Assembly (NCBI GenBank): GCA_027082955.1
Contig: JALWTA010000034.1
Span: 1 to 47,744, forward strand
Reading direction: 5' to 3'
From: Sulfurovum sp.
Lineage (GTDB): Bacteria > Campylobacterota > Campylobacteria > Campylobacterales > Sulfurovaceae
Length of the DNA: 47,744 bases
Below are positions 4,140 to 19,788 of the stretch, piece after piece. The position numbers and the translations under genes were made by a program. Numbering within the stretch: position 1 is the first letter of the stretch; the number at the start of each line of letters is the position of its first letter. The notes below the pieces were generated by a model, which ran no database searches, had not been told where the DNA came from, and worked only from the letters and a program-made list of their open reading frames with translations.

Positions 4140-4180
4140 GGGTATGATTAGGGACGTAGGGTTATAGATTATCTCCAAAG

Positions 4181-4507
4181 CCAAATAGGCGGAGTGCGCT
4201 GTAGATTTGAGGGTTGTGCCGAAGGAGCTTACGAGCAGTAAGTGACCGAGCACATCTCCCTCAAAGATGCAGTGCAATCATACACCAAAACCAAATAGGT
4301 GGAGTGTGCCGCAGATTTGGAGGTTGTACCGAAGGAGCTTGCTACAAGCAAGTAACTGAGCGTACCCCTCCAAAGATGCGGTGCAATCTTGCAATAAGAC
4401 CAAATAGGCGGAGTGTGCCGCAGATTTGGAGGTTGCACTGAGGGAGCTTACTAAAAGTAAGTGACCGAACGTGCTCCTCCGAAGATGCGGTGCAATCCGC
4501 CTATTTG
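4181..4507. repeat. Three tandem ~110-bp imperfect palindromes downstream of purB
   Basis: Units begin at 4181, 4291 and 4400 with CCAAATAGG and have periods of 110 and 109 bp. Each unit folds into a long hairpin with a 3-5 nt loop: 4233-4237, 4344-4346 and 4453-4455. Pairs change together between copies. TTTGAGGG with CCCTCAAA in unit 1 becomes TTTGGAGG with CCTCCAAA in unit 2. GTGC/GCAC becomes GTAC/GTAC and then GCAC/GTGC. The outer stem CAAATAGGCGGA (4401-4412) pairs perfectly with 4496-4507, which contains the purB stop codon. The arrangement resembles ERIC-type intergenic palindromes but the sequence is not one I know. Confidence 0.85.
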
Positions 4508-5829
4508 AAGACGCGATCGAAGATTTTGTCTACGTTTTTAGTGTAATAGTCGTAGTTAAAACACTCCCTGATCTGCTCTTCGCTTAGCTTCTCTCTGAGC
4601 TCTTTGTCTTCGAGCAGATACTGCAGGTAGAGCGATTCGCCTTTTTCATTGAGGGTTGGTTTGCCCTGCTGGATCTCTTCCCATACTTTCATGGCGTTGC
4701 GCTGTACGATCTTGTAGGCATCTTCACGGCTGACACCTGCTTTTGGCAGTTCGAGCAGGACACGCTGGGAGAAGACCAGTCCACCGGTGAGGTTGAGGTT
4801 TTTCATCATATTTTCAGGCATGACGGTCATGTTGGCGATGACACCGTTCATACGGTGGAGCATAAAGTCTGTGGTAATGAAAGAATCCGGTAGCCAGAAG
4901 CGTTCCGTGGAAGAGTGGGAGATGTCACGCTCATGCCAGAGGGCGACATTTTCCATCGCAGGGGTTGCGTAGGCTCTGATAATACGTGCGAGTCCTGTGA
5001 TGTTTTCTGTGAGGATCGGGTTACGCTTGTGCGGCATAGCAGAAGAGCCCTTCTGTCCTTTGGCGAAATACTCCTCTACCTCATAGACCTCTGTACGCTG
5101 CCAGTGGCGTACCTGTACAGCGAACTTCTCTACCGAAGATGCCAACAGTGCCAGTGCGGAAGCAAGACGTGCATAGCGGTCACGCTGGATGACCTGATTG
5201 GAGACGGGTGCGGGCTTGAGTCCGAGCTCCTCCATCGCATACTCTTCAAGCTCAAGCGGGGCATGCGCGAAGTTACCCATCGCACCACTGATCTGCCCTA
5301 CTCTGATGACTTCCATCGTCTCTTCGAGATTCTTGAGATGTCTTGCCATCTCATCATACCAAACTGCTAGCACCAAACCGAAGGTAATGGGCTCACCGTG
5401 AATCCCATGGCTGCGTCCGACCATGAGTGTCTTTTTGTGTTCAAAGGCTCTTTTTTTGATCGACTCCATCATCATTTTGACATCTTCGATGATGATCTTA
5501 AGCGAGCGTACCATCTGCAGTGCAACAGCGGTATCGACTGTATCGGAACTGGTCATCCCGTAGTGGAACCAGCGGCTCTCCTCTCCCAGCGTCTCGGAGA
5601 CCGATGTGGTAAAGGCGATCAGGTCGTGACGCGTGACCGCTTCGATCTCATCGATACGTTCTACCGAGAAGCCCGCATTCTCTACGATCTTTTTGGCATC
5701 CTCATCGGGAATGAGCCCCAGCTTGTTCCATGCTTTGACAACTGCCAATTCAACATCCAGCCATGCCTGATACTTCGCCTGCATAGTCCAGTTGTCTGCC
5801 ATCTCTTTACGTGAATAACGTTCTACCAT
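4501..5829 (-). CDS. purB: Adenylosuccinate lyase
   Basis: 442 residues. It catalyses two steps of purine synthesis: release of fumarate from SAICAR and from adenylosuccinate. The fumarase/aspartase signature is at 262-271 (SSAMPHKRNP). The TSSDTVDTA stretch (93-101) and the H141 region (GRSHGIHGEP) match the family's active-site blocks. The length is typical. The last codons and the TAG stop lie inside the outer arm of the adjacent palindromic repeat, so the end of the mRNA would fold into that hairpin. It is the only purine gene in its neighbourhood; purM is 14 kb away. Confidence 0.96.
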   Translation of the reverse strand: MVERYSRKEMADNWTMQAKYQAWLDVELAVVKAWNKLGLIPDEDAKKIVENAGFSVERIDEIEAVTRHDLIAFTTSVSETLGEESRWFHYGMTSSDTVDTAVALQMVRSLKIIIEDVKMMMESIKKRAFEHKKTLMVGRSHGIHGEPITFGLVLAVWYDEMARHLKNLEETMEVIRVGQISGAMGNFAHAPLELEEYAMEELGLKPAPVSNQVIQRDRYARLASALALLASSVEKFAVQVRHWQRTEVYEVEEYFAKGQKGSSAMPHKRNPILTENITGLARIIRAYATPAMENVALWHERDISHSSTERFWLPDSFITTDFMLHRMNGVIANMTVMPENMMKNLNLTGGLVFSQRVLLELPKAGVSREDAYKIVQRNAMKVWEEIQQGKPTLNEKGESLYLQYLLEDKELREKLSEEQIRECFNYDYYTKNVDKIFDRVFK

Positions 5830-5924: not shown

Positions 5925-6869
5925 ATGCCGTTCGTCAAAGAGAAGTTTCACGTGAAACAAACCATGCCTGCCTTTCTGTTTGTCATGCGTACGTTCAACC
6001 TGACGCAAGGACAGGCACAGCGTCTTGTCTGCAAAGGACGTCTGCTCATTGACGGAGCGTCCATCTACAATCCCGGCACAAAGTTACAGCCCGGAGAAGT
6101 AGAGGTTGTCCATTTTAAGCCTTCCGGAACCGGTGTAAAACCCCTCTTCCAAAACAAGGACTTCATGGTATTTGAGAAACCCTCAGGCGTACTCGTACAC
6201 CCCAACAAGATGGAAACCCCCTACTCCATGCTTGATGAGATTCGTGCTCTGCATGGGGAGAATGCCAATGCCACACACCGCATCGATATGGAGACGTCAG
6301 GATTGCTGCTTGCAAGCAAACACAAAAAAGCGGAACACTATTTGAAGAATGCATTTGAGCGGAAGATCATACAAAAGAGCTATCTTGCATGGGTAGACGG
6401 AAAGCTTGCAGAGCCCTTTTCTGTAAGCAAGCCTATCAAGATCAACGATGACTATTCGGAGTGTAAGCATAAGGTGTTTATTGACGATGAAGGCAAGTCT
6501 GCGCACACAGACTTCACCCCTCTGCATTACGATACCAAGCTCGATGCCACACTGGTTGCATGTTACCCTCTTACAGGCAGAACCCACCAGATCAGAGTCC
6601 ATTTGTTTCACGTGAAACACCCTATTTTGGGTGACCCCATTTACGGTACCACATTCCAGAGTGCCAATCATTACCTAGAAGATACCCTCACCCCGCAACA
6701 ACGCCTTGAACAAACAGGTGCCACACGGCTGATGCTTCATGCGCAGACTCTGAAATTTCCTTATGGGGCAACCTATTTTATTGAAAGCAAAGTAGATTTT
6801 GCAGGGATGAAAGAGGAGATTTGTCCGAAAGAAAAGCGAAAATTTAATGAGGGAATAGGTGATAGGTAG
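5925..6869 (+). CDS. RluA-family pseudouridine synthase
   Basis: 314 residues. It isomerises specific uridines to pseudouridine in rRNA or tRNA. An S4-like N-terminal segment (about 20-65) precedes the catalytic domain. The motif HRIDMETSG (118-126) carries catalytic D121, and LTGRTHQIRVH (216-226) is the second family block. The start has an AGAGG ribosome binding site. Two parS sequences are read as the tetrapeptide FHVK, at residues 8-11 and 228-231. The C-terminus EGIGDR and the stop are encoded by a heptamer array that runs into the gene. Which RNA position it modifies cannot be read from sequence. Confidence 0.9.
   Translation: MPFVKEKFHVKQTMPAFLFVMRTFNLTQGQAQRLVCKGRLLIDGASIYNPGTKLQPGEVEVVHFKPSGTGVKPLFQNKDFMVFEKPSGVLVHPNKMETPYSMLDEIRALHGENANATHRIDMETSGLLLASKHKKAEHYLKNAFERKIIQKSYLAWVDGKLAEPFSVSKPIKINDDYSECKHKVFIDDEGKSAHTDFTPLHYDTKLDATLVACYPLTGRTHQIRVHLFHVKHPILGDPIYGTTFQSANHYLEDTLTPQQRLEQTGATRLMLHAQTLKFPYGATYFIESKVDFAGMKEEICPKEKRKFNEGIGDR
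5944..5959. promoter_or_regulatory. parS site 1 (ParB binding), one mismatch
   Basis: AGTTTCACGTGAAACA matches the widely conserved bacterial parS palindrome TGTTTCACGTGAAACA at 15 of 16 positions, and the 14-bp core is a perfect palindrome. It lies inside the 5' end of the RluA-type gene. parA and parB are not in the window. Confidence 0.8.
6604..6619. promoter_or_regulatory. parS site 2 (ParB binding), perfect
   Basis: TGTTTCACGTGAAACA matches the parS consensus at all 16 positions. It lies inside the RluA-type gene, 660 bp from site 1, and is read as F-H-V-K. ParB loading here would mark the origin region for segregation. Confidence 0.9.
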
Positions 6870-6895
6870 CAAGTAGTAGGTTGTAGGGATGAAGG
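6854..6895. repeat. Degenerate heptanucleotide array overlapping a gene end
   Basis: Six 7-mers in register: aataggt, gataggt, agcaagt, agtaggt, tgtaggg, atgaagg. The first two overlap the final codons of the pseudouridine synthase, and its TAG stop (6867-6869) falls across units 2 and 3. Confidence 0.6.
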
Positions 6896-6913
6896 ATTTG
6901 TATATTCATTATT

Positions 6914-6922
6914 GGGGGGGGG
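6914..6922. repeat. Homopolymeric G9 tract
   Basis: Nine consecutive G between two convergent genes. G tracts of this length are slippage-prone and underlie phase variation in Campylobacter. Here the tract is not in a reading frame or an evident promoter. Confidence 0.7.
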
Positions 6923-6932
6923 ATTGGTTCGC

Positions 6933-7027
6933 GTAGGGTGCGTAGTCACGCACCTTCAAACCGTTGATCGAAAATACACATTACTATTACAACCAGATGA
7001 TTGAAAGGTGCGTGATTACGCACCCTA
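6933..7027. repeat. Inverted pair of REP-like hairpins (BIME-like)
   Basis: The left arm 6933-6959 and right arm 7001-7027 are inverted copies with two differences (one substitution, one extra A). Each arm is itself a hairpin headed by GTAG: GGTGCGT, a 4-base loop, then ACGCACC. A GTAG tetranucleotide before a small palindrome is the hallmark of REP elements mobilised by RAYT (IS200-like) transposases. The 41-bp centre encodes nothing evident and no transposase gene is in the window. Confidence 0.75.
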
Positions 7028-7038
7028 CTCCCTGCTCC

Positions 7039-7143
7039 TTATTCCCTATCGTCATCTCGGTTTGCATCATAGATGAACCACCCGCCACCGACACCGACTA
7101 CCAATACAATAAAGACCAACAACGCAATCTGTACATCAGGCAT
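7039..7143 (-). CDS. 34-residue single-pass membrane protein
   Basis: The frame from the ATG at 7143 reads MPDVQIALLVFIVLVVGVGG followed by GWFIYDANRDDDRE and a TAA stop. Residues 5-25 form one hydrophobic span with a Gly-rich VGVGGGW end. The acidic/basic tail would follow. AAAGGAG lies nine bases upstream, inside the last codons of rlmN, and the ATG is one base after the rlmN stop, so coupled translation is likely. It is too short for ordinary gene calling. Function unknown. Confidence 0.7.
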   Translation of the reverse strand: MPDVQIALLVFIVLVVGVGGGWFIYDANRDDDRE

Positions 7144-7144
7144 A

Positions 7145-8215
7145 CTACACCTCTCCTTTGGCTCCCTGCTCACGTAACTGGCCGCAGGCAGCAGAAATAT
7201 CAAGTCCTTTGGACTCTCTGATGGTGCAATGTAGTCCTCTTTTGGTTAAATACTCCTGAAATTTTTTCATATCAGCTTCACTTGGACGCTTAAACTCTGT
7301 ACCGCCGTAGGGGTTAAAGTAGATGAGATTGACTTTGGCTTTGATGCCGTCAAGGAGTTTCAACAGTTTTTTTGCCGCACTGATATCATCATTGACATCT
7401 TTGATGACAAGATACTCAAACATCACCCGTTTGCGGTCATTGACAGGGAAGTTTTTAACCGCGGTGATAATTGACTCGATATTGTAGGCTTTGTTGATCG
7501 GCATCAGCTTCGCTCTTAGCTCATCATCGACGGCATGCAGTGAGATGGCAAGGTTGATGCCAAGCTCCATCTTTCCAAGCTTCTCTATCTTGCTGCTGAG
7601 CCCGGAGGTTGAGATGGTCTGACGGTGTGGTGCGATCGCCATCCCCTCTTCATCGGCAAATATTTTTACCGACTTGGCAACCGCATCAAGGTTGTCAAGC
7701 GGTTCCCCCATCCCCATAAAGACAATATTGACACGGCGGTTGGCAGCGATATCATTGTCCTTTTTGATCAGACGCAGCTGCTCGACAATCTCACCGGGTG
7801 TTAAATTTCGCATGAAACCGCCCTTTGCAGTCAAACAAAAAGCACACCCTACCTTGCACCCTACCTGAGAGGAGATACAGACTGTATAGCGCTCCTGATG
7901 CTTTAAGGAGCCATCTTCGTGGTACTCTTTGTTGCGCATCAGCAGCAAGACCGCTTCAACAGTATGTCCGTCATGCAGCTCAAAGAGATATTTTCTGCTG
8001 CCGTCTTTGGAATTTTGTACCATCACCGTTTTGAGCGGAGTAAGAGTATATTTTGCTTCGAGTTCAGAACGCATCTCTTTGGGAAGATTTTTCATCTCCT
8101 CAAATGAGGTAGCATATTTGTGATAGATCCATTGATAGATCTGTTTTGCACGAAATGCCGGTTTGATCTCTTCTGCAAGCTCTTGTTTTGTCAGGTCTTG
8201 AATGATTTTTTTCAT
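7145..8215 (-). CDS. rlmN: Dual-specificity 23S rRNA/tRNA adenine-C2 methyltransferase
   Basis: 356 residues. A radical-SAM enzyme that methylates C2 of A2503 in 23S rRNA and of A37 in some tRNAs. The iron-sulfur cluster motif CxxxCxxC is at C120, C124 and C127. The resolving cysteine near the C-terminus is C344 (AACGQL), as expected for RlmN. The start has a GAGGA ribosome binding site eight to nine bases upstream. It is fourth in a tight minus-strand operon beginning with hisF, 12 bp after the excalibur gene. Confidence 0.95.
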
Positions 8216-18435: not shown

Positions 18436-19788
18436 ATGGCAAAAGCACGGTTTAGCCGGATCGGATTTATTTTGGCTGCAGCAGGTGCAGCAGTCGGTCT
18501 GGGGAATATTTGGAAGTTTCCGTATATTACGGGTATGTATGGTGGCGGTGCATTTGTCTTTGTCTATCTGATCACTGTGATGATGATCGGTTTTTCTATT
18601 TTGGCTGCCGAGATGTTCATCGGATACAAAGGCGGCAAAGATGCTGTGACAAGTTTTGAGCTCGTGTCACCTGAAGGTAAAAAAGGGTGGAAATACGCCG
18701 GATTTATGTTTATCAGCGGTATGATCATCATGACCTTTTATTCGGTAGTCATTGGATGGATATTTCACTATATCTATCTCTCGGCAACAGGCAGCCTCCC
18801 CTCTACGATGGAAGCAGCCAAAAACACCTTTGACGGACTGGTTGGACTCTCTCCAGTAACTGCCACCCTTTGGCATCTGCTTGCCACCCTGTTCGTGGCT
18901 GTGGTGCTTATGGGAGGGATCAAAGCCGGTATTGAAAAGGCAAACCTCATTCTGATGCCGATGCTAATGGCAATTTTACTTGGGCTGCTGGTCTATGCCA
19001 TGCAGTTTGACGGATTTGGCAAGGCACTTGCATTTATGTTCGAGCCAGACTGGAGCAAACTTACCTCTTTGGCGATCGTAAGGGCGGTAGGACATGCTTT
19101 CTTTACCCTCTCCATAGGTCTGGGTACCATGATCACCTACGCGGCTTCTATGAGCCATAAACAGTCTGTTTTCAAAGCGGCCTTCTGGGTCACTTTTCTT
19201 GATACTCTCATTGCCCTCATTGCCGGGGTCATGCTCTACAGTTTTATCTTCCAGTTCAATGCAGAGCCGGGACAGGGACCGGGACTGGTGTTTAAAACAC
19301 TCCCTATTGTCCTCTCACAGCTTGGCACAACCGGTACGATCCTTGCTGCCGTATTTTTCATAGGACTTGCCTTTGCCGGACTGACATCCGCCATTTCACT
19401 GACAGAACCTGCTGTTGAATATTTCATCCAGCGGTTCCACTGGAGCCGTCCCAAAGCGGTGATTGTCAACACTTCACTCTACTTTATCGTCGGTATCGGT
19501 GCTATTTTGAGCTATACCAAAGCCTACGGTGCTACCTTTAGCATAGGCGGTACACCGCTCTTTGATGCACTGGAGTTCTCAACAGACTCCATTTTGCTGC
19601 CCGTAGGAGGGCTTCTGATCGCCCTCTTTGTCGGATATGTCCTGCCTGAACATACCCGTGAAGAGATGCGAAAGCACCACCGCGTACCCGTTACTCTGTA
19701 CAACATATGGCGATTTAGCCTGCGTTACATCGCACCGGCTGCCATTGTCTTTATGATGCTGAACAATTTTGGGATTATCAAGATATAG
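18436..19788 (+). CDS. Sodium-dependent transporter, NSS (SNF) family
   Basis: 450 residues. A LeuT-fold secondary transporter that uses the sodium gradient to import amino acids or related solutes across the inner membrane. The first helix carries AAAGAAVGLGNIWKFPY, the sodium- and substrate-binding signature of the family. About eleven or twelve hydrophobic spans follow. It starts seven residues before the conserved core. The substrate cannot be deduced. It stands alone between the tRNA cluster (divergent) and purM (convergent). Confidence 0.92.
   Translation: MAKARFSRIGFILAAAGAAVGLGNIWKFPYITGMYGGGAFVFVYLITVMMIGFSILAAEMFIGYKGGKDAVTSFELVSPEGKKGWKYAGFMFISGMIIMTFYSVVIGWIFHYIYLSATGSLPSTMEAAKNTFDGLVGLSPVTATLWHLLATLFVAVVLMGGIKAGIEKANLILMPMLMAILLGLLVYAMQFDGFGKALAFMFEPDWSKLTSLAIVRAVGHAFFTLSIGLGTMITYAASMSHKQSVFKAAFWVTFLDTLIALIAGVMLYSFIFQFNAEPGQGPGLVFKTLPIVLSQLGTTGTILAAVFFIGLAFAGLTSAISLTEPAVEYFIQRFHWSRPKAVIVNTSLYFIVGIGAILSYTKAYGATFSIGGTPLFDALEFSTDSILLPVGGLLIALFVGYVLPEHTREEMRKHHRVPVTLYNIWRFSLRYIAPAAIVFMMLNNFGIIKI

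Follow-up and report, generated by a model that had tools for sequence, protein, structure and literature searches.

A GTAG-headed REPIN family in Sulfurovum and the probable loss of its cognate RAYT transposase

The element and its locus

The window analyzed here, a stretch of 47,744 nt, is contig 34 of a Sulfurovum sp. draft genome (G000; 2.10 Mb, 48 contigs, 95.6% complete). Direct reading of the sequence identifies at 6933-7028 an inverted pair of GTAG-headed hairpins flanking a 52-nt core, located between two convergent ORFs (table 1). The left neighbor encodes an RluA-family pseudouridine synthase (PF00849, E 1.5e-29, above the cut-off; TIGR00005, E 6.8e-49, under that model's cut-off), and the short hydrophobic ORF on the right, which precedes rlmN in the table, had no match in either of two family profile searches. 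Farther left, a tandem repeat of 109 bp in 2.9 copies (4176-4497) lies just 3' of an ORF (4501-5829) that is adenylosuccinate-lyase-like by eye.

Table 1. Features of the REPIN locus (window coordinates)
Feature	Position	Strand	Evidence
RluA-family pseudouridine synthase gene, convergent left neighbor	5925..6869	+	TIGR00005, PF00849
Left REP: GTAG head (6933-6936), hairpin GGTGCGT-AGTC-ACGCACC (6937-6954)	6933..6954	+	sequence, genome matches, arm census
REPIN core, 52 nt, ends partly complementary	6955..7006	.	inverted versus same site in G050, G023
Right REP: minus-strand reading, GTAG head (7028-7025) and hairpin GGTGCGT-AATC-ACGCACC; plus-strand reading, hairpin GGTGCGT-GATT-ACGCACC (7007-7024) and CTAC (7025-7028)	7007..7028	-	
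34-aa hydrophobic ORF, convergent right neighbor	7039..7143	-	sequence reading; no family match
rlmN (RNA methyltransferase)	7145..8215	-	TIGR00048, E 1.9e-134, above cut-off

The unit reads GTAG-GGTGCGTAGTCACGCACC, core, GGTGCGTGATTACGCACC-CTAC. An earlier note on this DNA had described an inverted, BIME-like pair of GTAG-headed REPs with hairpins of the form GGTGCGT-4 nt-ACGCACC, and the sequence bears out both the layout and the two hairpins. The start at 6933 also stands; the unit runs to 7028 rather than 7027, and the stretch between the hairpins measures 52 nt instead of the 41 bp given for the center. The exact sequence GTAGGGTGCGT occurs twice in the window, where the pair is the only one of its kind, and perfect palindromes that have a GTAG head and arms of 6 bp or more comprise the two REPs and an unrelated sequence at 19603. 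Folded as single-stranded DNA, the 96-nt unit (the window copy alone) forms one long hairpin of -26.6 kcal/mol, with a z score of -8.1 relative to 200 dinucleotide shuffles. No T run was seen by eye 3' of the hairpin on either strand, and Rfam returned nothing above gathering score for 6700-7300, its two miRNA-family matches both being below theirs.

Distribution and context of the repeat family

When two mismatches or fewer are allowed, GGTGCGTNNNNACGCACC matches the genome of the window at 52 places and a reversed control pattern at 3, and requiring the GTAG head and zero mismatch leaves 21 forward and 22 reverse copies (control 0 and 0). This copy number excludes chance. The window copy is therefore not alone: there are about 50 copies and three genes for Y1_Tnp proteins in the genome, the opposite of the single copy without a RAYT gene that the earlier note had set against its own reading.

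Pairs and singles were enumerated in the stretches around the listed matches (50 of the 52 in G000) and in two relatives, G050 and G041, admitting matches with at most two mismatches that also had at least three of the four head bases or at most one mismatch in the body; this census omits three two-mismatch matches of G000 (C4, C14:11006 and C30:126316). It comprises 12 pairs and 25 singles in G000, 31 and 34 in G050, and 15 and 15 in G041, singles being at least as frequent as pairs in all three, and one G000 single (window 19719, head TTAG, within a gene) is probably a chance match. An exact GTAG heads 182 of the 190 arms, the heads face outward in 56 of 58 pairs, and start-to-start spacing is 63-71 nt in 42 of the 58 (66-70 nt in 9 of the 12 G000 pairs). 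With arm, loop and stem base counts conditioned on the mismatch limit, the loop of singles starts with A (73/74) and ends with C (70/74), and stem position 7 of paired arms is A, not T, in 23 of 116, with T at the partner position in 21. A short palindrome with GTAG at one end and many dispersed, mainly extragenic copies are the hallmarks of GTAG REPs, and inverted REPs at near-constant spacing that fold into a single hairpin (as the window copy does) those of REPINs or BIMEs; the window element belongs, as a REPIN/BIME, to the known GTAG-REP class.

The headed zero-mismatch pattern (A:T or T:A at the loop) is present in 27 of 78 Sulfurovum genus genomes, with 0 occurrences of the reversed control in each. 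A stricter form with the loop ANNC was found in 11 of 396 genomes sampled from the order, all belonging to this genus, one of 85 covered, and within the order, which was the scope of the search, only the Sulfurovum genus group showed the family. GTAG and CGTC repeats have been reported to coexist in one Sulfurovum strain (Di Nocera et al. 2013, PMC3733652), so the window family belongs to a known class, and the remark in the earlier note that Campylobacterota are not a classic REP group is only half right. The parts of the 2013 account drawn on here describe GTAG REPs that resemble the window family in their GTAG tag, a stem range (6-13 bp) that includes ours, dimers with GTAG outside (HH) and REPs beside RAYT genes (REPtrons), a comparison with the Sulfurovum GTAG family by description, not by consensus; those parts hold neither the cognate RAYT nor the orphaning in sister species found in this study. 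In the open-licence PMC literature, this was the only paper on RAYT or REP in Sulfurovum; no title on an inverted REPIN and no REPIN/RAYT study of Epsilonproteobacteria surfaced.

Neighboring genes were classified with a crude ORF caller, pooling G000, G050 and G041 and counting each orthologous copy. Neighbors are convergent at 16 of 58 pairs and 13 of 74 singles and co-directional at 30 and 46, respectively, while 5 pairs and 8 singles fall inside a predicted ORF. A location between convergent genes, raised in the earlier note, thus applies to the window copy but is not a rule. Applied to the window, this caller scores 7 neighbors as convergent, 7 as divergent and 28 as co-directional, by which measure convergent sites are somewhat enriched among the pairs. 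Of the 46 singles between co-directional genes, 38 have their GTAG head toward the upstream gene, and many singles end, by eye, a few nucleotides before a purine-rich stretch and an ATG. From their position, singles may be candidates for a leader or intercistronic RNA role.

RAYT genes and their repeats

A cognate RAYT gene flanked by exactly the window repeat was found in 2 of the 78 genus genomes, G003 and G061, so the RAYT link proposed in the earlier note is real, by way of relatives whose RAYTs have this repeat on both sides. In G003, the gene (154 aa; NF047646 REP_Tyr_transpos, E 4.6e-47) lies between an upstream REP of the window family and a full REPIN of the family, and its TAG stop codon sits in the GTAG head of the downstream REPIN. 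Like the E. coli-type TnpAREP (PDB 4er8, "TnpArep for protein"), with which it is homologous over residues 1-152 (E 2.7e-24), it has both HxH histidines aligned, H58 and H60 of the HUH motif being invariant in 17 aligned rows; unlike that system, the cognate RAYT comes from sister species, none having been found in the genome of the window. The G061 protein is 70% identical to that of G003, and four REPINs (eight arms) of the window family occupy its 3.5-kb locus. Loci were fetched and flanks inspected for 30 of 48 RAYT rows, and these two alone of the 30 have the window repeat; other RAYTs adjoin other arms (GGTGTGC, GGTGTTGT, GTTTGGC, GGTGGGC and more), and some have no perfect headed palindrome. 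In a RAYT alignment scan of named genomes, most of the best 80 of at least 367 confirmed matches bear Sulfurovum, Sulfurovaceae or other Campylobacterota titles, the remoter matches among these 80 being Melainabacteria/Gastranaerophilales and Gammaproteobacteria.

RAYT phylogeny and repeat arms co-vary. Removal of stop-containing, shorter than 125 aa and identical sequences reduced 110 rows to 81 distinct RAYTs, and in their tree the G003 and G061 proteins are sisters (support 99/95). Arm type, defined by the first six bases (23 rows scored "none"), changes 32 times on this tree compared with a mean of 54.9 when shuffled, with 0 of 200 shuffles as low and near copies adding to the clustering; the summary table of the 81 RAYTs has no arm type that forms a single clade, apart from the G003/G061 pair on the tree. 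GTAG-headed perfect palindromes occur on both sides of 45 of the 75 RAYTs having at least 200 bp on each side, and 34 of the 81 distinct genes have a TAG stop that forms part of a GTAG, in many cases the head of the REP downstream (L098-L124, L263-L342).

G000 itself encodes three Y1_Tnp proteins, one of them under the Pfam cut-off, which answers the earlier note's question of whether a Y1 transposase is present. The window repeat family is absent from the stretches read around all three genes, and none of them falls in the cognate RAYT clade. Three Y1/RAYT-like genes of this genome (L016, L017 and L018; C29, C33 and C30) each adjoin, by eye, their own different repeats, in that order TCAGGTGATAATGATAA with AAAGCTTTAGG-like, GGAACCGACAGCTTCAGC with GGGGCTGAAGCCTCCGA, and TTCCACATC-4-GATGTGGAA; a run of N at L016 2395-2494, inside a stretch where the RAYT 3' end is present a second time, is possibly a scaffolding artefact.

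Queried with the G003 RAYT, G000 yielded nothing of its clade, the best match (26% identity, E 5.6e-9) being the gene at C30 with other repeats, and no cognate RAYT was thus found with the repeats in this 95.6% complete draft. A weak RAYT-like match beside a REP on C14 (E 0.18), a 99-aa ORF of other look, was judged to be chance. The same query found no clade member in G050, G054, G023, G048, G053 or G069, and in G041 it met a relative (48%) whose reading frame holds a stop and whose flanks carry the GGTGTTGT family. G050 has 41 + 42 headed copies at 99% completeness yet yielded no cognate RAYT, suggesting that the repeats outlive the RAYT, that its loss was recent or that the gene lies in draft gaps; it is possible that an assembly gap also holds the cognate RAYT of G000. 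A repeat-flanked cognate RAYT was found in 2 of the 27 repeat-bearing genomes (30 of 48 RAYT rows inspected), and G003 has no exact headed copy beyond those adjoining its RAYT, indicating that RAYT presence and copy number are uncoupled.

Many copies occupy orthologous sites in two to four species among G000, G050, G041, G023 and G048, amid flanking sequence of about 70-99% identity, which indicates that they were inherited and not freshly moved; no movement of copies was observed. Arms are intact in most carriers, where no RAYT was found (counts conditioned on at most two mismatches), and simple decay therefore fits less well. Given that the Y1 genes of G000 are without the repeat, that a repeat-flanked RAYT is present in only 2 of the 78 genomes and that RAYTs and arms co-vary, the window copy is most likely a REPIN orphaned by RAYT loss and vertically inherited.

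Site history and interpretation

Most genomes of the genus keep the rluA-rlmN arrangement, and 30 loci, 27 with the rluA end present, were compared at the window site. G000, G023 and G050 carry the pair, and G041 carries it with one arm decayed; in G002 and G004 a single of the window family, with one or two mismatches, lies close to the rluA end, and the family is absent at the other 21 loci, including G054 and G048. Core orientation is kept in 16 of 17 site clusters with both flanks aligned (two with some unclear comparisons). The exception is the window cluster, where the G000 core scores 28 and 30 against G023 and G050 in direct and 64 and 66 in inverted orientation, as opposed to a direct score of 87 between G023 and G050. 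Among 64 other cores, none matches the window core better than these two, and 1000 shuffles of the G050 core score at most 41. Judged from these alignments, the window REPIN is inverted in place relative to G050 and G023. The loops in G041 (AATC left, AGTC right; right arm truncated) are those of G000 after inversion, an agreement that is weak because G050 and G023 have AGTC on both sides. Inversion in place and excision followed by opposite reinsertion would fit equally.

Other repeat families occupy some of the same intervals. Among 379 comparisons of 135 elements with orthologous intervals, the window family is present in 277, and 24 of the remaining 102 (18 elements) hold another GTAG-headed perfect palindrome, with 0.2 expected from dinucleotide shuffles; the 102 are non-independent, some sites and loci being repeated, and RAYT loci account for two of the 24. 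At the window site itself, other GTAG-headed palindromes are present in G001, G015 and G012, and G019 has a GGTGCTGT hairpin followed by CTAC. The exact register is clear in few cases, as where, directly after the TAG that ends a gene, G050 has GGTGTGTAACCACACACC and G041 has GGTGTTGTCCCCGGACAACACC. Differing REP families were also noted in orthologous intergenic intervals on G000 C1, C44 and C45, G050 C9, C63 and C34, and G041 C130. The GGTGTTGT family numbers 6 + 6 copies in G000, 23 + 21 in G041, 17 + 15 in G050 and 11 + 9 in G023 and was not found in G048. Independent insertion at shared GTAG sites and replacement could both place other families at shared sites.

We consider it tentatively, and as an idea with the odds against it, that GTAG docking sites are reused, with RAYT families swapping hairpins or REPINs, and that the window REPIN was flipped where it stood, together with its hairpin loops, in this way or by template switching at the palindrome. 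A pre-existing GTAG target would leave GTAG in empty sites, of which few are usable and the answers mixed: G054, REP-free at the window site, has CAGGGAGTAG at the position of the G000 right head (minus strand), and a G053 gene has a terminal TAG at the place where, in G050 and G041, a TAG stop is directly followed by different hairpins, but the comparison of G000:C38 with G050:C80:7594 gave no GTAG. In the 60 bp outside the heads, GTAG occurs 18 times on the left side of pairs (shuffle mean 9.5, maximum 16), 25 times at singles (19.0, maximum 26) and 7 times on the right side of pairs (6.7), a weak signal overall. In 21 of 178 heads, the TAG serves as the in-frame stop codon for an ORF of 70 codons or more, with a spike at offset 0 that an element-supplied stop would explain as well.

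Taking these observations together, we regard the window element as very probably a REPIN of a GTAG-REP family that was spread by a RAYT since lost, with its copies now vertically inherited. The element is nonautonomous, and in the mechanism envisaged a single-strand HUH/Y1 transposase (RAYT) would recognize the GTAG head and hairpin in single-stranded DNA, cut at GTAG and insert copies mainly in intergenic DNA. We infer this chemistry, the past activity, and loss in preference to other histories; the RAYT would have been lost from, or be missing in the assemblies of, G000 and several close relatives, and the remaining copies would now pass vertically. Weighing against this explanation are the mixed answers from empty sites, the small number of carriers in which a repeat-flanked RAYT was found and the intact arms in carriers where none was found. 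Compatible with this explanation, though improbable at perhaps one chance in a few, is that the repeats are now selected host elements, acting as bidirectional terminators, mRNA 3'-end protectors or leader hairpins, for which the RAYT origin is historical. Arms that stay intact in species where no cognate RAYT was found, the upstream-side heads of co-directional singles and the purine-rich stretch with ATG seen by eye after many singles would suit such a role. The missing T run and the patchy occupancy of the window site, with pairs in three relatives (one arm-decayed), singles in two remoter ones and no window family at the other compared rluA-rlmN loci, G054 and G048 among them, speak against it. 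A present host function could be, for example, that of an RNA hairpin at gene ends.

Mobilization in trans by another Y1 enzyme, such as the long type (256-270 aa), seems to us distinctly improbable. Genes of this type do occur in G000, G050, G041, G048, G054 and G064, several of them repeat-rich, but the window repeat was within about 1.5 kb at 0 of 18 mostly long-type loci (L081-L097, L016), at 0 of 11 other Y1 loci (L069-L079) and not at L080 (~1.5 kb), and G001 has long-type genes but no headed copy. The inverted-repeat layout by itself would also be compatible with an ordinary MITE of a DDE transposase or with a chance or terminator palindrome, an origin to which we give almost no credence: RAYT genes flanked by the repeat argue against both, copy number rules out chance, and an exact GTAG in nearly all arms together with singles at least as common as pairs is unlike terminal inverted repeats.

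REPINs and their RAYT linkage are established; unusual here are the details beyond them, in-place inversion and re-occupied intervals. Inverted REP doublets constitute dispersed, RAYT-linked REPINs in Pseudomonas fluorescens SBW25 (Bertels and Rainey 2011, PMC3116915). As far as the portions of that paper used here describe them, they resemble the window family in being dispersed inverted doublets that form one hairpin and are linked to a RAYT, but the window family differs in its arm sequence, in the lack of a cognate RAYT found in most carriers and in having singles at least as numerous as pairs in G000, G050 and G041. RAYT loss leaving REPs behind and a switch of REP class ("orthoswitch") are known from pseudomonads and stenotrophomonads (Nunvar et al. 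2013, PMC3686654). In the sections of that work available, REPs left after RAYT loss and different REP classes at orthologous RAYTs are likewise described, whereas here other REP-like palindromes fill orthologous intervals away from RAYT genes.

The present data tie a REP family of Campylobacterota to its transposase through direct flanking and co-variation, and the species with and without the RAYT are a natural set for measuring REPIN persistence. On the mechanism of REP class replacement, Nunvar et al. state, in the part of their paper drawn on here, that only speculation is possible (PMC3686654); re-occupied intervals and in-place inversion provide a sequence-level handle on this replacement.
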